Below are positions 39,603 through 56,650 of a stretch of 58,099 nucleotides of DNA, piece after piece. Both the position numbers and the translations under genes were made by a program. Position 1 is the stretch's first letter, and each line of letters opens with the position of its first letter. Under the pieces are notes generated by a model, which was not told the origin of the DNA, ran no database searches, and saw only the letters and a list, made by a program, of their open reading frames with translations. Origin of the DNA: a virus; the IMG/VR virus record IMGVR_UViG_3300049043_000087, positions 1 through 58,099 of that record; one strand, given 5' to 3'.

Positions 39603-39722
39603 TCAGATGGTGTTGAAATGGGATTGAAATTTGTTGAGTGTGTAGGCCAGCAGCGCTGCGGCTGCTGTCCAAAGTAAATCTTTCAGTACAGGAAGTACGT
39701 AAGAAAGAAGTGCTTCAAACAT
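39603..39722 (-). CDS. Small membrane peptide, 39 aa
   Basis: MFEALLSYVLPVLKDLLWTA followed by AAALLAYTLNKFQSHFNTI: one hydrophobic helix with a short polar tail. First gene after the hairpin leader at 39757, with CTCAACTC immediately before ATG. Role unknown. Confidence 0.6.
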   Translation of the reverse strand: MFEALLSYVLPVLKDLLWTAAAALLAYTLNKFQSHFNTI

Positions 39723-39750
39723 GAGTTGAGATGTAGTGGAAAGCTGGTCA

Positions 39751-39772
39751 GTTTAACGTCGTGACCAGGACG
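39751..39772 (-). promoter_or_regulatory. CGTC-N8-GACG hairpin leader element
   Basis: Minus strand CGTC-CTGGTCAC-GACG followed by TTAAACTG, 35 bases before the ATG at 39722. Same architecture as elements at 43156, 44298, 47205, 52568 and 54448. The spacing and repeated placement suggest a promoter or 5'-leader signal. Confidence 0.6.
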
Positions 39773-43121: not shown

Positions 43122-43148
43122 GGTTGGTTCTGAGTTGGAACACGGATG

Positions 43149-43170
43149 CTTTTAACGTCATCCCAGGACG
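43149..43170 (-). promoter_or_regulatory. CGTC-N7-GACG hairpin leader element
   Basis: Minus strand CGTC-CTGGGAT-GACG followed by TTAAAA, 35 bases upstream of the ATG at 43121. One base shorter in the loop than its relatives. Confidence 0.55.
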
Positions 43171-43175
43171 GGTGC

Positions 43176-43460
43176 TTACTCTAATTCGTCTTGTTGCAAT
43201 GGCAAAGACGTTTGTTTCTTTTCTTGACATTGGAAGTGTTCTTCCGCAATGTCACGCATGCAGCCATAGATTACATCATCGTAATGACCACATCCCCGCA
43301 GAAAATCTACAATGTGTCGAATGATGTTATCTGTAAACACCTCCTGGAATGTTGTTAGGTTTTGGCTATTGCCATCCTGGTGCAACAAATAGAAAGTGTC
43401 ATGAGGAAGTTCTTTATCCAGAGGAAGAACAAACTCAAACTCAGGTTTTTGATTTTCCAT
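43176..43460 (-). CDS. Hypothetical protein, 94 aa
   Basis: MENQKPEFEFVLPLDKELPH, DTFYLLHQDGNSQNLTTFQE, VDFLRGCGHYDDVIYGCMRD, ending acidic. Its start overlaps the ssb stop (four-base type), so it is cotranslated with ssb. No family recognised. Confidence 0.65.
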   Translation of the reverse strand: MENQKPEFEFVLPLDKELPHDTFYLLHQDGNSQNLTTFQEVFTDNIIRHIVDFLRGCGHYDDVIYGCMRDIAEEHFQCQEKKQTSLPLQQDELE

Positions 43461-44266
43461 TAGAAAGGTGCCTCCTCTAGTTCAGGTGCAGCGCCGTATC
43501 GACCAGGCAACTCGGGCAGGCCCGAATTAACAGACCAAGGATCCCCCTCCTCTTCCGAGCCACGCCCGCCCCACAGGGGAGCTGCTGTATCCGACGACAA
43601 GGTAGTCGACGGTTTGATCTCCTGCGTGTTCGGTGTTTGATTCCCCTTGGGAGCCAAGGTCATAGAGATTAGCTGGATCTTGGTCTGGCTTTTCTTTTCA
43701 CCACTGGTATTATCCTTCCAGGAATCAGTGACCAGCCTGCCCTGGATTGTAAGACCAGTTCCCTTGCGTGTGAAATTAACCAGGAGTTCTGCGTTGTTTA
43801 ACTTATCCTCTGCCGTATTAATGGCATAGAAGTTAAACAGATCAGCTTGGTTACGCCCAGTGTTTACAGACAGTGTTTGATTACAGATCATCAACCCACT
43901 TTCCGTAGTTTTAAACACCCTGGCATCGTCCGTAGCAATGTCTTTAACGCAACGGCCGCTGAGGATGACGGTGTTAAGCATCGGGAACTGATCGTTGACC
44001 TGTACAGCAGTGCCGCCATGGAGCGAGTGTGTTCTGCTGTCGACATCAAAGCGTAGCTTGGCGCCGTGAATGTAGATGTAGTTTCCTTTACGGAGCCTAG
44101 AGAAACGCTCGGCGTTCTTTCCATAGATGTTGAGATCAAGTTGAGTTTGAGCTTTGTTACCCACGGGCGGCAGGATGACCGTGCAGCGCATGGCAGTTGA
44201 TGAAGCTGAGGTAAAAACCTCGCGCGGATCTTCGGACAGATACGCGTATATAGAAGCAAAGTTCAT
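43460..44266 (-). CDS. ssb: Single-stranded DNA-binding protein with two OB folds
   Basis: 268 residues, intact. Residues 1-90 look like a first OB fold (STAMRCTVILPPVGNKAQTQ; LRKGNYIYIHGAKLRFD). Residues about 95-205 are a canonical SSB fold: MLNTVILSGRCVKDIATDDA, FNFYAINTAEDKLNNAELLV, KGTGLTIQGRLVTDSWKDNT, QTKIQLISMTLAPKG. A disordered Gly/Pro/Glu linker ends in ELEEAPF, like the acidic tip of bacterial SSB that recruits partners. Coats ssDNA at the fork with the polymerase encoded just downstream in the map. It has its own hairpin leader. Confidence 0.85.
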   Translation of the reverse strand: MNFASIYAYLSEDPREVFTSASSTAMRCTVILPPVGNKAQTQLDLNIYGKNAERFSRLRKGNYIYIHGAKLRFDVDSRTHSLHGGTAVQVNDQFPMLNTVILSGRCVKDIATDDARVFKTTESGLMICNQTLSVNTGRNQADLFNFYAINTAEDKLNNAELLVNFTRKGTGLTIQGRLVTDSWKDNTSGEKKSQTKIQLISMTLAPKGNQTPNTQEIKPSTTLSSDTAAPLWGGRGSEEEGDPWSVNSGLPELPGRYGAAPELEEAPF

Positions 44267-44291
44267 GTGTTCGGAAGTTAGGTAAAAGGCA

Positions 44292-44313
44292 GTTTAACGT
44301 CGTACCTGGGACG
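44292..44313 (-). promoter_or_regulatory. CGTC-N8-GACG hairpin leader element
   Basis: Minus strand CGTC-CCAGGTAC-GACG followed by TTAAACTG, 32 bases upstream of the ssb ATG and directly after the corrected end of the polymerase gene. Confidence 0.6.
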
Positions 44314-47172: not shown

Positions 47173-47198
47173 GAGTTGAATTGAATTGAATGAAAGCA

Positions 47199-47220
47199 GT
47201 TTAACGTCATACTCAGGACG
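47199..47220 (-). promoter_or_regulatory. CGTC-N8-GACG hairpin leader element
   Basis: Minus strand CGTC-CTGAGTAT-GACG followed by TTAAACTGC, 33 bases upstream of ATG 47172. This exact element, over 25 bases, recurs at 52562-52583 and 54442-54463. Confidence 0.7.
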
Positions 47221-49815: not shown

Positions 49816-49893
49816 TGGTACCCGAGGTGAGATTCGAACTCACGCTAGAGCGATTTTAAGTCGCTTGCCTCTTCCGCTTGGGCTACTGGGCGT
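49816..49893 (-). tRNA. tRNA-Leu (anticodon UAA), short variable loop
   Basis: Minus strand. T arm GTGAG-TTCGAAT-CTCAC, anticodon arm AGCGA-CTTAAAA-TCGCT with UAA at positions 34-36, D region GCCCAAGCGGAAGAGGC, and an encoded CCA after CTCGGGT-A. The 5' acceptor ACGCCCAG pairs imperfectly with CTCGGGT, with one extra base, probably a read error. The variable region is only about five bases, whereas bacterial tRNA-Leu is normally class II with a long arm, so identity is by anticodon. Confidence 0.8.
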
Positions 49894-49899
49894 ACCTGG

Positions 49900-50104
49900 A
49901 CTTACCTCTACATCAATGGATGTTGAGTGCCAGGTATGGTCATGGGGTAACGGCTCAGTGCCATAATCCCATGTGTACGTGAGTCTTCCTCATCTGCGAG
50001 GATCTTCTTCAATCAGATATGTGCTGGTGGTGAATTGTCATGGATAAATTCACCAATGTTTGCCATGGCCATAGCCGAAGAGCTGGCTTATCGGTGTAGC
50101 TCGG
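49900..50104. other. Region with at most a broken microgene
   Basis: A minus-strand start MAMANIGEFIHDNSPPAH near 50076 runs out of frame after 18 residues; fragments in other frames follow but none is convincing. Otherwise no feature is seen between the tRNA and the terminator. Confidence 0.3.
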
Positions 50105-52359: not shown

Positions 52360-52534
52360 TCATAAATTCAGAATCAGGTCCAAGTACTTTTCAACAAGAT
52401 CAGGAAATGCATCAAGCAAACGCTGACGATTTACTGGATCTGCAAATTGCAAAGTTTGTGCCGAATGCACTAACGAATGAACCGCCACTAGCCTGCATGA
52501 GACAGAGCATGGCAAAAAACTGTGTTTGATTCAT
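52360..52534 (-). CDS. Hypothetical protein, about 58 aa, frameshifted
   Basis: MNQTQFFAMLCLMQASGGSF V, shift near 52465, then HSAQTLQFADPVNRQRLLDA and FPDLVEKYLDLILNL. First gene after an exact hairpin leader. No family recognised. Confidence 0.45.
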
Positions 52535-52561
52535 GGATTGAATTGCAATGTGATGTGAGCA

Positions 52562-52583
52562 GTTTAACGTCATACTCAGGACG
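52562..52583 (-). promoter_or_regulatory. CGTC-N8-GACG hairpin leader element
   Basis: Minus strand CGTC-CTGAGTAT-GACG followed by TTAAACTGC, identical to the copies at 47.2 and 54.4 kb, 34 bases upstream of ATG 52534. Confidence 0.7.
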
Positions 52584-52864: not shown

Positions 52865-52921
52865 TCATCGAAGTTCGTCAGGCAGGAGCATGTTGGTGTC
52901 TTTCTCGTTCATGTTGGACAT
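52865..52921 (-). CDS. Microprotein, 18 aa
   Basis: MSNMNEKDTNMLLPDELR with a stop two bases before the next ATG. Could be a leader peptide for the membrane microprotein rather than a functional product. Confidence 0.3.
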   Translation of the reverse strand: MSNMNEKDTNMLLPDELR

Positions 52922-52931
52922 GACGAATGTT

Positions 52932-53072
52932 TCAGCCGTCAGGTGAAATAAATCCACCAACAAATCCCATACCGTATTTATCTGCAGACTCACGCATCTT
53001 GGCAGTGAGTTGCATGAAGGCAAGCTTCTGTGAATCTAATGAATTAGGAATGGTTGGTTTGTTGGATGACAT
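52932..53072 (-). CDS. Hypothetical protein, 46 aa
   Basis: MSSNKPTIPNSLDSQKLAFM, QLTAKMRESADKYGMGFVGG. Helical, intact. Start at 53072 is preceded by CATCTCAACTC and, 30 bases up, a hairpin; residues upstream in the open frame are non-coding. Confidence 0.55.
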   Translation of the reverse strand: MSSNKPTIPNSLDSQKLAFMQLTAKMRESADKYGMGFVGGFISPDG

Positions 53073-53101
53073 GAGTTGAGATGGTGATAGGTGAATGGAG
53101 T

Positions 53102-53132
53102 CTACCAGTAATGTCAAGGACGTACTACTGGT
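53102..53132 (-). promoter_or_regulatory. Leader hairpin TACCAGTA/TACTGGTA
   Basis: Perfect eight-base inverted repeat TACCAGTA-N15-TACTGGTA, 30 bases upstream of ATG 53072, in the position that the CGTC-N8-GACG element has elsewhere; the loop contains GTCAAGGACG. Confidence 0.5.
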
Positions 53133-53399
53133 ATGTAATAAATCCTTCTTATCGAATAAAGGATTTCTCCCTGGTACTCCCCTTCGGGGGTCTGGGGGCT
53201 GCTCACATCGGATACGCTCCTCCTGCAGGGACTCACTGGGCCAATGATTGTTTAGGGGATTCCGCTTGGTTCAGGCCCAACCGGAAACACCGACCATTTT
53301 GTTGAAGCAAACAAAATGGTTAGCAACGATGAAGCAAGGGGCGCCTGGCCGCACCAGGCTTAGGTTCTAATGCGAACCAGCCCTTTGCTTTACCAACAA
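53133..53399. ncRNA. Structured non-coding region with tandem hairpins (candidate RNA)
   Basis: About 265 bases without a gene but with several hairpins in a row: AAATCCTT-N11-AAGGATTT (53140-53166), CTCCCC-TTCG-GGGGTC near 53177-53192, ACCATTTTGTT-N6-AACAAAATGGT near 53292-53320, and GCCTGG-CCGCA-CCAGGC near 53343-53360. The spacing and diversity go beyond one terminator. It could be a non-coding RNA on either strand, a transcription attenuator, or a replication-related locus. Confidence 0.4.
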
Positions 53400-53655
53400 T
53401 CACTTGTGTGCTTCCTGGTGTTCTTTCCATGCAGCAGTGTGCATTTCATCCATAGTTATGGGTGGTTCACCAGTCAGATCATCATCTGATGGTTCGTCCC
53501 ACCTCAGTTGCTCTTTCGAGCAGACCAATAGCTTCCAAGATCAGCTCTGGAGCTTCATAAGGAAGTGTTTTGTCTGGCCAATCGCGTTTGTCTTCGCGTT
53601 GGTAGATAGCACTGAGTTCTTTAAGGATGAGATAAATGCGACGTTCTTCACGCAT
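53400..53655 (-). CDS. Hypothetical protein, about 84 aa, frameshifted
   Basis: MREERRIYLILKELSAIYQR, EDKRDWPDKTLPYEAPELIL, EAIGLLERATEV, one shift near 53505, then RWDEPSDDDLTGEPPITMDE and MHTAAWKEHQEAHK. Charged and helical. Preceded by a nine-codon leader frame and a strong hairpin. Confidence 0.5.
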
Positions 53656-53668
53656 GGCAAAAGGTTAT

Positions 53669-53730
53669 CTGTGTACCGTCTGAGCGTTGGTACACAGTTG
53701 TTATTCAAAGTGCAGTTCAGTTTGTGACAT
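53669..53730 (-). promoter_or_regulatory. Leader peptide frame plus hairpin (attenuator candidate)
   Basis: A nine-residue frame MSQTELHFE (53701-53730), itself preceded by GCAATTCAACTC, is followed by a perfect hairpin CTGTGTACC-N11-GGTACACAG that ends 13 bases before ATG 53655. The layout resembles a translational or transcriptional attenuator; there is no T-run after the stem. Confidence 0.4.
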
Positions 53731-53861
53731 GAGTTGAATTGCAGTGGGGTTAAAGCAAAGCCTGGTATTCATCCACGAAGTTTGCTACGATACATAAGTA
53801 AAACTTATATGCTGATTGGTGCTTTAATCATTAGATTAAGCCAAGGATTGAAAGCCACGAG

Positions 53862-54169
53862 TCAGGGTGGTCCGGTTCGACCTTCTTCGTCGTCTGGCGT
53901 GAAGCAGACGCTGTCGAACGACCACTCCTCGATGTCTTCGTTGGTTGGGACATCGTACCAACCTTCGAGTTTCTCTTCGGTGTGGACTGGTTTCCAGTAG
54001 CAGCGCAGGGTTCCTCGCTTGTTTCTGTAGACACAACCAGTGGTTGGTGCTCCAGGTTTGTCTGGATCCCAGTTGATGTCAGCTTGAAATTGTTCTTGGG
54101 CTTCCTCTTCGGAGAAGGGGACGTAGCCAAAGCTTTCTGCAATGGCTTGGAGCTTGTTGGATGAAGCAT
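53862..54169 (-). CDS. Hypothetical acidic protein, about 103 aa, hidden by a start-codon indel
   Basis: The convincing frame is not the longest one here. It reads ASSNKLQAIAESFGYVPFSE, EEAQEQFQADINWDPDKPGA, CVYRNKRGTLRCYWKPVHTE, GWYDVPTNEDIEEWSFDSVC then FTPDDEEGRTGPP, with a stop at 53862. The ATG at 54169 (after CTC) is one base out of phase, probably a lost G (ATGGCTTCA). The two longer overlapping frames are Ser/Arg-rich and implausible. Confidence 0.6.
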
Positions 54170-54236
54170 GAGATGAACTCCGTGATAATAATTAGAGATG
54201 ATTGTGATAATGATAATGATGATGTCTGGTTCTTGA

Positions 54237-54296
54237 TTAGCTTTCGTCATCGTATTCCTCAGCATTAATTACGTTGAATCCAATGAACTGTACCAT
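54237..54296 (-). CDS. Possible microprotein, 19 aa
   Basis: MVQFIGFNVINAEEYDDES overlaps the end of the 46-aa gene in another frame. It may be a separate microgene or the true C-terminus of that gene after an indel. Confidence 0.3.
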   Translation of the reverse strand: MVQFIGFNVINAEEYDDES

Positions 54297-54409
54297 TGTC
54301 GTTCGACGAGGGTCCATTCGGATTGATCTGATTCACGCATAGCCTGCTCTTGTTCATATGCCATGTCAGCCATGGCATCTAGCAAGTCAGCGTTGTAGTT
54401 GTTGTCCAT
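54269..54409 (-). CDS. Hypothetical acidic protein, 46 aa
   Basis: MDNNYNADLLDAMADMAYEQ, EQAMRESDQSEWTLVERQWY. Start preceded by CAATTCAACCC and the hairpin leader at 54448. Highly acidic helix; possibly an inhibitor of a host protein (composition only). Confidence 0.55.
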   Translation of the reverse strand: MDNNYNADLLDAMADMAYEQEQAMRESDQSEWTLVERQWYSSLDST

Positions 54410-54441
54410 GGGTTGAATTGAATTGATAAAAGGAACGAGCA

Positions 54442-54463
54442 GTTTAACGTCATACTCAGGACG
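54442..54463 (-). promoter_or_regulatory. CGTC-N8-GACG hairpin leader element
   Basis: Minus strand CGTC-CTGAGTAT-GACG followed by TTAAACTGC, identical to two other copies; 39 bases upstream of ATG 54409. Confidence 0.7.
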
Positions 54464-54500
54464 GGGTGATACCACCCCAGATTTGAGTGAATTCAATAAA

Positions 54501-54773
54501 TTAATTCACATCTCTCCATGCAATGCCACGGGCAATGTTGGAGATACTGCAACCAGTAACACCAAACTTCTTACCGATAACGTTATAGAAGTTAGTAACT
54601 GTGCCGCAGGAACGCCTGAGGTTCTCATCCTTCAAGATCATCTTGATTTCCTTGACGGATTGAGGGTTGAGTTTAGAGGGTCCATCCCAATTACGAAAGC
54701 TACGCTTGGGATAACGCTTGATTGCTTCCTGTCCACTCCCCCGATCATCCCTGGCACCTATAACAGCCTTCAT
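54501..54773 (-). CDS. Helix-turn-helix protein, 90 aa
   Basis: A basic N-terminus (AIKRYPKRSFRNWDGPSKLN) then LNPQSVKEIKMILKDENLRR and IGKKFGVTGCSISNIARGIA followed by WRDVN: a helix-turn-helix like those at the ends of phage HNH proteins and small regulators. Likely DNA-binding. The start overlaps the upstream gene (ATGA). Confidence 0.6.
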   Translation of the reverse strand: MKAVIGARDDRGSGQEAIKRYPKRSFRNWDGPSKLNPQSVKEIKMILKDENLRRSCGTVTNFYNVIGKKFGVTGCSISNIARGIAWRDVN

Positions 54774-54934
54774 CTGTGGTGCTGGCTGTTGGATGGGGGA
54801 TAGGGGGAGTTGAGTGGGAAGCCAAGAGTTACAGAGGTACCGTCTTTTATGACGGAGATCGTGACCTCGTTATCCCTGGTAATAACCGAGACGTGGTCCG
54901 GTTGTTGGATGTCCAGTTGGCTGAGAGCTTCCAT
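54770..54934 (-). CDS. Hypothetical protein, 54 aa
   Basis: MEALSQLDIQQPDHVSVITR, DNEVTISVIKDGTSVTLGFP. Beta-rich core (VSVITRDNEVTISVIKDG) and a Pro/Ser tail. Start preceded by CTACAACTC and a hairpin at 54963. Confidence 0.6.
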   Translation of the reverse strand: MEALSQLDIQQPDHVSVITRDNEVTISVIKDGTSVTLGFPLNSPYPPSNSQHHR

Positions 54935-54962
54935 GAGTTGTAGTGGTTAGCAAATAGAGAGT

Positions 54963-54994
54963 AGCTAGTCCCTGCAAGAATGCAAGCACTAGCT
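54963..54994 (-). promoter_or_regulatory. Leader hairpin AGCTAGT/ACTAGCT
   Basis: Perfect seven-base inverted repeat with an inner TGCTTGCA/TGCAGG imperfect stem, 29 bases upstream of ATG 54934, in the same position as the other leader hairpins. Confidence 0.5.
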
Positions 54995-55018
54995 GTGGTT
55001 TGTTAGATCGACGAGACA

Positions 55019-55240
55019 CTAGGGGTGTGGCACAAAGTCCGAGTGGGTTAGCAGTTGGTGGACTGACAGGCAGTCCTCAGCAATCTCGTCTTTGGTGCAG
55101 CCGTCCCAGTCATCAGTTTGGTTCTCGATCACCTCGCAGCCAAGGTCTTCGAGTTGGTCGATGAACTGATTCCAGTTATGGGCTTCACCCCATACGTGGG
55201 CGTAGCGCCCAGTACAGTCAGTGACTAATGCGATGAACAT
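55019..55240 (-). CDS. Hypothetical protein, 73 aa
   Basis: MFIALVTDCTGRYAHVWGEA, HNWNQFIDQLEDLGCEVIEN, QTDDWDGCTKDEIAEDCLSV. Start chosen at the Met in the TAATG overlap with the upstream gene. Acidic, four Cys. No family recognised. Confidence 0.65.
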   Translation of the reverse strand: MFIALVTDCTGRYAHVWGEAHNWNQFIDQLEDLGCEVIENQTDDWDGCTKDEIAEDCLSVHQLLTHSDFVPHP

Positions 55241-55416
55241 TAGTAGGCTCCGATATATTTGGTGATGTCGACGCCCATAGCTGCGCCAACCGTCATGGCA
55301 GCAATTGCTACGCAAAAGATGCCGACGAAGAGATTGGACAGGGGCGTCTCACCGTGTGTCTCATATGAGTCAAGGTGTATGTAACGATTGACTCCAAGTT
55401 TGATGATGTGTTTCAT
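55240..55416 (-). CDS. Small membrane protein, 58 aa
   Basis: MKHIIKLGVNRYIHLDSYET, HGETPLSNLFVGIFCVAIAA, MTVGAAMGVDITKYIGAY: a polar N-terminal 25 residues and one membrane helix. First gene after the GCAGGA hairpin. Not covered by longer frames. Confidence 0.6.
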   Translation of the reverse strand: MKHIIKLGVNRYIHLDSYETHGETPLSNLFVGIFCVAIAAMTVGAAMGVDITKYIGAY

Positions 55417-55445
55417 GTGATGAGATGTTGGGTAGTAAATAGTGT

Positions 55446-55463
55446 GCAGGATGTGAGTCCTGC
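55446..55463 (-). promoter_or_regulatory. Leader hairpin GCAGGA/TCCTGC
   Basis: Minus strand GCAGGA-CTCACA-TCCTGC, 30 bases upstream of ATG 55416; related to CAGGA-CTTACTA-TCCTG at 56571. An adjoining inverted repeat TGCTCTT-N7-AAGAGCA at about 55466-55486 may end the upstream SLOG unit. Confidence 0.55.
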
Positions 55464-55530
55464 TGGTGCTCTTCTATACAAAAGAGCAAGAGCAGAAATC
55501 AATTGTTTAAAAGAAATGCATTTACATTGG

Positions 55531-56020
55531 CTAACGTTTGAGGATCTCTAAGTTTCGAATTGGAATCCGATAAGTTTGAGCCATTCTTAACGCTTGTCCT
55601 GTTCCTCCTGTAATTTGTCCTCCAGGCGTATATGCAACAACCATCTTTACGGGATCATTCATGTTTGAACCTAGAAGTTGCATTGCGTTCCTTGCCATTA
55701 AAGAACGAGCAAATTCAGACAGTCGTTCAGGAGCTGGATGGAATTGGTTAACGGTAGCAATTGCTTGATTCCAGCTAGGCAGTTTGCTTGAATCTATGTA
55801 AGAAATATGATCTGCATAACGAGAATTAAAACTATTTGAAGGAAGATAAATCTGTTTAGATAAAGGATTAAGAAACACCGCGTTCAAAAGCCGTGTCTGC
55901 TCCTGCAGCACCTCCTGATCTTAACGTGTATCCCATTCCTTCTAACTTAGAAGCTAAACGTGTCATAACACTTAAGATTTGAGGCGGTGTTGAACGAGCA
56001 CCGATTCCTGCGTAATACAT
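55531..56020 (-). CDS. SLOG (DprA/LOG-like) nucleotide-binding protein, frameshifted
   Basis: About 163 residues. Start MYYAGIGARSTPPQILSVMT, KLEGMGYTLRSGGAAGADTA FERG carries the Rossmann-like GxGxR and GGAxGAD motifs of SLOG proteins. One indel near 55890, then SKQIYLPSNSF, NQFHPAPERLSEFARSLMAR and DPVKMVVAYTPGGQITGGTG QALRMA, the second conserved glycine-rich block. The family binds nucleotides or nucleotide-like ligands; phage members have no established role. AT-rich compared with neighbours. Confidence 0.75.
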
Positions 56021-56054
56021 GCTTACTGAAATAAATTAATTTTAACAAAGGAAA

Positions 56055-56090
56055 GGACACGTCCATATAAATACGAACGTGTCCTAAATG
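56055..56090 (-). terminator. Rho-independent terminator
   Basis: Minus strand GGACACGT-N14-ACGTGTCC followed by TTTCCTTTG: perfect eight-base stem. It separates the OB-fold gene (stop 56115) from the SLOG gene. Just upstream a direct repeat TGTCCGTACGT occurs twice in tandem (56088-56109). Confidence 0.7.
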
Positions 56091-56114
56091 TCCGTACGTT
56101 GTCCGTACGTTAGA

Positions 56115-56543
56115 TCAGAGTGCGATCTCCTCCAGTGTGGGCTGAACCACGCCAGAGGTTTCTGCCTTTGATGCAGGCTTACGACCGAACTCGTAATCCT
56201 TCACAAGCAGCTGGATCTCTGGACGTTTCAGTACCTGGAGTTGGTTCTGATCATCCATGTAGGTAGTACGAATACCATTGATACGGCCGTAAACCCGAAG
56301 CTCCTGACCGACAACGAGGTTGCCGTTGGAGTATGCGGTGTTGAGGCCGTTGTTATTCGTGAAAGTGAGAGTGATGCTGACCATGGAGTTCAGGTTGTGA
56401 ATCATCTTCACACCAATGAACTGGCTGTTGTCCTCTTCGTTGGTGAATTGCTTGATGAAAGCAATCCGACCTTGGAACTGGACATGAGCCGAGTCAGCAT
56501 ACTGCTTGAGGTCAGCAGTGTCAGTAGCAGGAGTAGTAGCCAT
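56115..56543 (-). CDS. OB-fold single-strand DNA-binding-like protein, 142 aa
   Basis: MATTPATDTADLKQYADSAH, VQFQGRIAFIKQFTNEEDNS, QFIGVKMIHNLNSMVSITLT, NLVVGQELRVYGRINGIRTT, then VLKRPEIQLLVKDYEF and an acidic end PTLEEIAL. Five-strand barrel pattern with a late basic strand suggests an SSB-like OB fold. It would be a second such protein beside ssb at 43.5 kb. Has its own leader hairpin at 56571. Confidence 0.6.
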   Translation of the reverse strand: MATTPATDTADLKQYADSAHVQFQGRIAFIKQFTNEEDNSQFIGVKMIHNLNSMVSITLTFTNNNGLNTAYSNGNLVVGQELRVYGRINGIRTTYMDDQNQLQVLKRPEIQLLVKDYEFGRKPASKAETSGVVQPTLEEIAL

Positions 56544-56570
56544 TGGGTTGAACTGAGTTGAGTTGAAGTA

Positions 56571-56587
56571 CAGGATAGTAAGTCCTG
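56571..56587 (-). promoter_or_regulatory. Leader hairpin CAGGA/TCCTG
   Basis: Minus strand CAGGA-CTTACTA-TCCTG followed by TACTTCAACTCAACTC, 28 bases upstream of ATG 56543. Related to the hairpin at 55446. Confidence 0.55.
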
Positions 56588-56650
56588 CAGTAAACCCACC
56601 ACCGATACGAATTCGTATCAATGGAAGGGTTAAGTGCAAGCTTCACTTGC

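Follow-up and report, generated by a model that had tools for sequence, protein, structure and literature searches.

The CGTC element that recurs before minus-strand genes of the window (the whole stretch of DNA analysed, 58,099 nucleotides of IMG/VR record IMGVR_UViG_3300049043_000087), here called class I, is an H-type pseudoknot whose two helices both covary strongly. We consider it somewhat probable that class I is a coremin-like xrRNA, an interchangeable leader "guard" that would block the 5'-3' exoribonuclease RNase J. The original prediction had placed the CGTC element in a slot shortly before start codons, where it is indeed present, but had taken it for a plain hairpin, a description that the covariation corrects to a pseudoknot.

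Fold, placement and spread of class I

The source virus infects freshwater cyanobacteria and has these small RNA knots directly before its genes. The six copies in the window are as follows.

54436–54463, minus strand: class I pseudoknot before the 54409 gene (S1 CGTC/GACG, S2 TGAGTA with TGCTCG; exact pattern, structural scan and covariation)
52556–52583, minus strand: class I before a small ORF with ATG at 52534 (exact pattern and structural scan; class I in 5/5 leaders)
47193–47220, minus strand: class I before the 47172 gene (phrog_1392, unknown function; exact pattern)
44286–44313, minus strand: class I with loop CCAGGTAC before the SSB gene at 43460–44266 (structural scan; SSB by phrog_44)
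43144–43170, minus strand: class I variant before the 43121 gene (7-nt loop CTGGGAT, S2 GGAT with ATCC)
39745–39772, minus strand: class I before an ORF with ATG at 39722 (loop CTGGTCAC, S2 TGGTCA with TGACCA; class I in 21/21 leaders)

Class I consists of a 4-bp stem (S1) with an 8-nt loop. Loop nucleotides 2–7 base-pair with the hexamer 3' of UUAAAC, and the resulting pseudoknot has S1 4 bp, L1 1 nt, S2 6 bp, L2 1 nt and L3 6 nt. S1 was fully paired at 124 of 132 sites chosen blind to S1, compared with a mean of 85 after the 3' strands were re-dealt, and its variants include CGTC/GACG, TGTC/GACA, GGAC/GTCC, AGTC/GACT, CGAC/GTCG and TCTC/GAGA. Both helices were assessed in an alignment of 73 rows (68 rows made up of all non-CGTC/GACG sites and 30 random CGTC/GACG sites, plus five of the six window copies; the copy with the 7-nt loop was excluded because of its length, and rows failing S1 were retained), in which two-sided changes occurred in 9 of the 10 pairs and 90.8% of cells paired, compared with 24–47% in slid registers. 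Only 44 of the 73 sequences form the outermost pair of S2.

An ATG follows 20–30 nt downstream, at about 26 nt, at 93 of 178 class I sites, compared with 3/178 on the opposite strand, and a stop codon precedes within 10 nt at 104/178 sites. The median distance of 7 nt to that stop codon would suit stimulation of stop-codon readthrough or frameshifting, as by pseudoknots just 3' of a slippery site or stop; however, the upstream gene and the next ATG share a reading frame at 35 of 120 sites, which is the third expected by chance, a further stop lies between in 16 of these 35, and class I also stands before tRNAs. With no frame bias, this role was rejected and is hardly credible.

The phages that carry class I infect cyanobacteria, Firmicutes, Actinobacteria and alphaproteobacteria, and also include crAss-like phages (Bacteroidales). 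In the annotated isolates D6E, phiEF-1.1, staphylococcal StauST398-3 and B166, class I immediately precedes a gene, annotated as scaffold or hypothetical, that is followed by the major capsid gene, and in Molivia and cr124_1 it lies directly 5' of tRNAs. Class I might instead act like a phage translational operator, bound by a protein of phage or host origin that controls translation of the next gene, and its fixed place before the ATGs of several genes, including SSB, is what a regulon would look like. Such a role is nevertheless unlikely, given the same fold across all these phage groups and the copies directly before tRNAs, which a translational operator leaves unexplained.

Different structures in one leader slot

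The proposal that different structures take the same slot was borne out in relatives, where orthologs of one gene carry different structured RNAs 20–40 nt before their start codons. Leaders were assigned by an automatic classifier, followed by inspection of the rows left as "other" (6/36 for SSB, 10/36 for the 47172 gene, 4/13 for the 43121 gene and 2/17 for the 54409 gene); class I or coremin-type cores were seen in all of the inspected rows but L091 (54409 gene) and L197 (43121 gene, cut at a wrong start). By classifier and inspection together, the SSB gene has class I or a coremin-type element in 36/36 leaders, and the 36 ortholog leaders of the 47172 gene have class I, or class II once. 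The 54409 gene has class I in 11 of its 17 leaders, class II in five and neither in one, and the 31 leaders of the 49796 gene comprise 20 with a tRNA, eight with class II and three with neither. In the window, this last slot holds two features.

49895–49934, minus strand: class II element, a hairpin (CCTGG/CCAGG) carrying TAAGT as its 3' bulge and separated from the tRNA by 3 nt
49816–49891, minus strand: tRNA-Leu(taa), filling the slot before the 49434–49796 gene (ARAGORN, Rfam)

Relatives have other tRNAs or class II in place of tRNA-Leu(taa). A 51-nt class II stretch folds at −17 kcal/mol (z −3.0), and class II covaries in relatives. The location of both classes at cistron borders and a few nucleotides before tRNA genes, together with their strongly conserved letters (TTAAAC and TAAGY), could also point to processing signals, with an endonuclease or self-cleavage at or beside them separating cistrons and tRNAs. 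Against this, a search of Rfam 15 with the whole window, a 91-nt class I stretch and three class I/II loci gave no ribozyme match, only tRNAs reaching the gathering threshold and all else being at chance level, and the coremin match indicates blocking, not cutting; we regard the processing reading as improbable.

Four further inverted repeats

Four other perfect hairpins had been predicted to occupy the slot where the CGTC element is missing. All four inverted repeats were found on the minus strand, ending 27–30 nt 5' of the ATGs at 53072, 54934, 55416 and 56543.

53103–53133, minus strand: inverted repeat TACCAGTA/TACTGGTA (the 53102 repeat), 8-bp arms, 15-nt loop
54963–54994, minus strand: inverted repeat AGCTAGT/ACTAGCT, 7-bp arms, folding as a 13-bp hairpin at −20.8 kcal/mol
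55446–55463, minus strand: inverted repeat GCAGGA/TCCTGC, 6 bp, 6-nt loop, a conserved hairpin whose stem letters change
56571–56587, minus strand: inverted repeat CAGGA/TCCTG, 5 bp, 7-nt loop, of the same kind as 55446

Fold z-scores of the 68-nt leaders were −2.5 (53102), −4.0 (54963), −2.7 (55446) and −1.2 (56571), and the minimum-energy fold of the 56571 leader is a structure other than the predicted hairpin. For the 30 minus-strand genes between 37 and 58 kb whose leader gap measures 25 nt or more, there were 16 slot stems of 5 bp or more where dinucleotide shuffles gave 10.0 (P 0.007), and four of 7 bp or more where they gave 0.7. The excess over shuffled sequence was thus as predicted, but it vanished against random same-strand places of the region (13.9 expected, P 0.32) and random intergenic same-strand places (15.4 expected, P 0.49). 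Across the 21 kb as a whole, perfect inverted repeats occur at no less than double their frequency in shuffled sequence, so that the excess belongs to the region rather than to the slot. This comparison would fit the view that hairpins are simply common here and that the four were picked by eye, which is very unlikely as a general account, in that the 55446 hairpin, class I and class II all covary across relatives; it is refuted for these three and stands for 53102.

The 55446 repeat is a real hairpin with compensatory stem change. A stem of 6 bp or more is present in 15 of 19 ortholog leaders, against 1.7 expected, and the compensatory changes sought in relatives were found with place and shape constant, the stem appearing as GCAGGA/TCCTGC, GCAGTCCT/AGGACTGC, CAGCTCT/AGAGCTG or ATCAACC/GGTTGAT. 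The 56571 hairpin recurs in one other ortholog only, L128, with GCAGGA/TCCTGC. A candidate motif common to 55446 and 56571, CAGGACTNACNATCCTG, was rejected, its 31 IMG/VR stretches being about what chance would give by a rough estimate.

The claim that position and shape are kept while sequence is not thus holds for 55446 but not for 53102 and 54963, where the dyads are not generally kept and mRNA hairpins are not supported, the overlapping DNA letters or spacing being kept instead.

53099–53117, minus strand: conserved TTGACA-N7-TAGACT, overlapping the 53102 hairpin; a promoter-like or other motif
54958–54985, minus strand: conserved TTGCAT-N16-TACTCT, overlapping the 54963 hairpin; sigma-70-like spacing, weak hexamers

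It is fairly likely that these two are not RNA elements but overlap promoter-like or other conserved DNA, their dyads being operators or chance. At 53102, a stem of 6 bp or more occurs in 4/33 ortholog leaders, barely above the shuffled mean of 3.1, and TTGACA-N7-TAGACT-like letters occur in 13/33 by a strict pattern; at 54963, promoter-like spacing of 16–17 nt is found in 11 of 12 leaders, compared with a dyad of 6 bp or more in only six of the 12. On the other side, the 54963 hexamers are weak against the sigma-70 consensus and went unflagged by a consensus scan, the 7-nt spacing at 53102 is unlike sigma-70, and the 54963 stem folds very stably.

Comparison with coremin and other small RNAs

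The coremin motif (xrRNA-C) is an Xrn1-resistant RNA of BNYVV and other RNA viruses, located in intergenic regions and UTRs, with a loop rule for Xrn1 stalling, YGNNAD, defined by mutation (PMC10520033). Class I shares its 4-bp hp1 CGUC/GACG and its spacer GACGUUAAACU (PMC10520033). All six window copies have CGTC/GACG, matching hp1 with its GUC/GAC core; five have the spacer UUAAACU identical to coremin, followed by G where coremin has A, and the 43144 copy has UUAAAAG. The window loops (CTGAGTAT, CCAGGTAC, CTGGTCAC and CTGGGAT) likewise begin with a pyrimidine and have A next to last, but are 7–8 nt long without G at position 2, unlike YGAD, YGNNAD or longer YG...AD loops. The window copies lack hp2 and have a 4–6-bp pseudoknot with the loop instead, and the phage elements differ in belonging to dsDNA phages of bacteria, in standing before start codons or tRNAs and in their variable S1 sequence.

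Elements closer to coremin also occur in phages. In 11 contigs with CGTC-N4-7-GACGTTAAACTAC, every 6-nt loop (6/6) obeys YGNNAD, and coremin-type elements (hp1, YGNNAD loop, spacer UUAAACU) are present on phage contigs L182, L183, L185, L189, L191, L192 and L113. L113 has the loop CGAAAT twice, with UUAAACUAU, and the element of L191 sits in the SSB leader, a position that class I occupies in the window. With regard to hp2, and by inspection only, the spacer is followed in L113 by a tRNA-like sequence (T-arm letters) and in L185 and L192 by a hairpin about 18 nt on.

Flaviviral xrRNA (PMC5760640) is likewise small and pseudoknotted and has been proposed to act as a brace against a 5'-3' exonuclease; it differs from class I in its larger ring fold. 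Among the papers listed by a search of mostly open-access literature, none linked xrRNA or coremin-like RNAs to phages; the spacer string GACGUUAAACU appeared only in the plant-virus coremin paper, and the other element strings only in unrelated papers.

The preQ1-I riboswitch, the BWYV-type frameshift pseudoknot and the pistol ribozyme are, as class I is, small hairpins whose loop pairs with downstream letters, and are set apart from it in that no Rfam 15 family, beyond tRNA and chance-level hits, matched the window, the class I stretch or the three loci. Cluster K mycobacteriophages have start-associated and extended start-associated repeats that keep a constant short spacing to many start codons downstream; these are inverted repeats of conserved sequence with no known pseudoknot, and are set apart from class I by that description.

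Proposed function and significance

The roadblock reading of class I draws on its covarying fold, its strand, its fixed stop-to-start place, its presence in many unrelated phages, the sequence identity of its stem and spacer with those of coremin, the true coremin loops in phage contigs and the swapping in the slot. A polycistronic phage mRNA would first be cleaved upstream, RNase E being the probable enzyme in cyanobacteria; RNase J, moving 5'-3', would meet the class I knot and halt, and the downstream cistron would retain its ribosome-binding region, or a following tRNA its 5' side. We infer resistance of class I to RNase J, and class II and the 55446-type hairpin may serve the same job. 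PMC5760640 reports that flaviviral xrRNA halts purified bacterial RNase J1, which its authors call an enzyme that xrRNAs never naturally encounter, and RNase J of Synechocystis is a 5' exonuclease thought to follow RNase E (PMC7283877).

Several observations stand against the roadblock. The octaloop breaks the coremin YG loop rule and no hp2 follows the spacer; the outermost S2 pair is absent from many of the aligned sequences; and knot-capable sequences occur in a Vibrio phage group, antisense to annotated ORFs in the member examined, and on two Acinetobacter plasmids. Gammaproteobacteria mostly are not known to have RNase J, nor is E. coli. BLAST with 30-nt queries, a weak sieve, matched 1 of 5,426 E. 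coli genomes with the first query (a plasmid match that lacks S1 and lies antisense within ORFs) and 18 of 5,426 with the second, none covering 80% of the query and the ten matches listed all within coding genes. This outcome fits a role tied to RNase J, with counter-cases in Vibrio and Acinetobacter. RNase J scored over the cut-off in 9/13 element-carrying genomes and in 9/14 controls, and so did not discriminate.

xrRNAs are weapons of RNA viruses against Xrn1. With a little less than even confidence, we propose that they extend beyond eukaryotic RNA viruses: phages of cyanobacteria, Firmicutes, Actinobacteria, alphaproteobacteria and Bacteroidales may possess a coremin relative with a pseudoknot, and in some cases true coremin, which blocks the path of RNase J and sets the 5' ends of mRNAs and tRNAs, and in S-EIV1-like phages an undescribed class II and tRNAs may serve the same slot, making leaders swappable guards. 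If true, the same trick would work against an unrelated bacterial enzyme, across many phyla, before capsid, replication and tRNA genes. PMC5760640 suggests that such RNAs are possibly more widespread than appreciated, and named phages are now available for testing the wider occurrence raised there. If borne out, the elements would provide a portable RNA-stabilising tag for RNase J bacteria and would help to explain differential expression within phage operons.

Pseudoknot of the CGTC element

The CGTC element (class I), of which the window holds six minus-strand copies, each preceding an ATG, is, as judged from covariation, an H-type pseudoknot, with a 4-bp stem S1 (CGTC/GACG) and a helix S2 formed between its loop and letters downstream. 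IMG/VR has 27 stretches with an exact match to the 24-mer CGTCCTGAGTATGACGTTAAACTG; for CGTC-N8-GACGTTAAACTGC the number is at least 119. Loop and 3′ letters covary (GAG/CTC, GGG/CCC, AGG/CCT, AAG/CTT, GGT/ACC). With the letters TGC of S2 preset by the search pattern behind most loci, and loop positions 2-4 and their partners free, S2 is paired at 5 or 6 of its 6 positions in 89% of 140 distinct loop/3′ combinations, versus 65% (maximum 73%) with permuted 3′ parts. S1 pairs completely in 124 of 132 sites chosen on loop and spacer letters alone (re-dealt mean 85). Among 73 sequences, both-sided changes were counted at 9 of 10 pairs, slid registers gave far lower values, and 0 of 500 shuffles matched the covariation score. 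Another loop class, CGTC-AAGCTG (or GAGCTG)-GACG-TTAAAC-G(C/T)AGC, occurs in six phage contigs (L007, L013, L092, L114, L146 and L178), where GCTG could pair with CAGC or TAGC.

Position could be counted at 178 of 204 sites, those with sufficient flank. An open-frame ATG lies 20-30 nt downstream in 93 of them (3 on the opposite strand), and a stop codon precedes the element by at most 10 nt in 104. Of 120 downstream genes, 35 share the frame of the gene upstream; readthrough was therefore rejected as the purpose of class I. The minus-strand leaders between knot and ATG are A/C/T-rich (CAATTCAACTC), and an obvious Shine-Dalgarno sequence is absent from them.

The nearest annotated phage to this 58-kb IMG/VR virus record is Synechococcus phage S-EIV1 (KJ410740), with a single DNA match (77.3% over 4% of the query). 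By inspection, S1 (3 or more bp) and S2 (4 or more bp) could form in all 21 annotated phage matches fetched. These matches belong to the following hosts or groups, and class I occurs additionally in Rhizobium and B. megaterium phages:
Synechococcus, Nostoc, Microcystis, Moorella, Paracoccus, Christensenellales
Mycobacterium, Arthrobacter, Corynebacterium, Cellulosimicrobium, Lactobacillus, Staphylococcus
crAss-like phages, microvirus, D6E, unassigned faecal phage, Vibrio phage

Class I in D6E, phiEF-1.1 and two phages of Staphylococcus lies 3′ of a gene that is portal, head or hypothetical, and directly precedes a scaffold or hypothetical gene, after which comes the major capsid gene; the gene before it in B. 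megaterium phage poppyseed is the head-to-tail joining gene, and in Molivia and cr124_1 its 3′ end lies 1-4 nt before tRNA genes. A scan of 84,980 genomes returned 13 stretches, none with a gamma- or betaproteobacterial label.

Other structures in the leader slot

The four inverted repeats of the original prediction (53102, 54963, 55446 and 56571) are all present, 27-30 nt upstream of ATGs. The proposed excess of slot stems held against shuffled sequence (stems of 5 or more bp, 16 in 30 leaders versus 10.0, P 0.007; mean folding energy from -60 to -12, -8.67 versus -6.55, sd 0.48) and disappeared when the comparison was with sites drawn at random from the 37-58 kb region, where 13.9, or 15.4 between genes, would be expected. 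Because one window cannot settle the question, orthologous leaders of related contigs were compared.

Conservation of shape under changing sequence was borne out for 55446, which comparison indicates is a real hairpin: of the 19 leaders compared, 15 have a stem of 6 or more bp, in several different sequences, where shuffling gives a mean of 1.7; the longest stem scored is a neighbouring hairpin in 4 of the 15. The dyads at 53102 and 54963 did not behave in this way. At 54963, 11 of the 12 leaders retain TTG(N3)-N16/17-TA(N3)T and only 6 a dyad of 6 or more bp, so that this site is probably a promoter with a dyad; its hexamers are weak, and a promoter consensus scan gave no flag there. Of the 33 leaders compared at 53102, 4 have stems of 6 or more bp, against a mean of 3.1 after shuffling. 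A strict pattern for TTGACA-N7-TAGACT (53099-53117) matches 13 of the 33, and several others have close variants. This motif, whose 7-nt spacing is unlike sigma-70, precedes a 46-aa ORF in many relatives. The 56571 stem is a candidate for the same behaviour, its single other ortholog having a stem of the same kind. A palindrome GATACGAATTCGTATC followed by GGTGGTGGGTTTACTGCAG (56588-56630) precedes the 56571 hairpin; in relatives, this block precedes the ortholog of the 55416 gene.

A bulged hairpin (class II), CTNGG-C-[variable hairpin]-G-TAAGY-CCNAG with TAAGY as a conserved 3′ bulge, gave 146 candidates, versus 25-51 with permuted bulge letters, in a search that demanded the outer stem P1 and left the inner helix free; seven related P1 stems account for 86. 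The inner helix has three predicted pairs, and in a set of 37 sequences each shows two-sided changes in 13-18. An open ATG lies 20-40 nt downstream in 57 of the 146, and other candidates directly precede tRNA genes. Rfam gave no match for class II in the window and related loci. Among relatives, class I, class II and tRNAs interchange before the same gene. Further features of the window are:
39-437, TGCTG array of about 80 copies
43460-44266, minus strand, SSB gene (phrog_44), among the minus-strand genes of 37-58 kb
49895-49934, minus strand, class II copy, the one case in the window directly before a tRNA gene (tRNA-Leu)

Comparison with coremin and possible function

Coremin, a plant-virus RNA motif, is described as stalling Xrn1 and as having a 4-bp first hairpin (hp1) with a YGAD or YGNNAD loop, followed by spacer UUAAACUAC (PMC10520033); the searches described there covered RNA viruses, and a term search of its text found neither "phage" nor "bacteri". 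Both hp1 and GACGUUAAACU of coremin recur in the phage element. The window copies lack two defining features, the loop letters and the second hairpin; they are nevertheless proposed to work like coremin. Unlike them, coremin-type phage contigs follow the loop and spacer rules: CGTC-N4-7-GACGTTAAACTAC was found in 11 contigs, with YGNNAD in all 6 six-nt loops, YGNNNAD in 2 of 4 seven-nt loops and a lone four-nt loop that does not fit. The isolate Lactobacillus phage LR2 carries loop CGCAAT. In L191, a relative of the window, hexaloop CGAAAT lies between the polymerase (named by eye) and SSB genes, the slot occupied by class I in the window. In contig L113, class I is followed in tandem by a coremin with loop CGAAAT, and this pair precedes tRNA-like sequences at two places:
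L113, position 726, reverse strand, class I and coremin tandem
L113, position 1794, reverse strand, class I and coremin tandem

Cyanobacterial RNase J is reported to have 5′ exonuclease activity and probably trims RNase E products (PMC7283877), and RNase J1 is reported to be stopped by a flaviviral xrRNA (PMC5760640). Counting against a roadblock are the putative Vibrio and Acinetobacter copies of the element and the non-discriminating RNase J count (9 of 13 element-bearing genomes versus 9 of 14 controls). In the proposed mechanism, RNase E would cut and RNase J would then trim from the 5′ end; a knot with a stop codon just upstream and the ribosome-binding region downstream would be placed to spare the next cistron. 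We infer that class I most likely serves as a roadblock protecting the downstream cistron.
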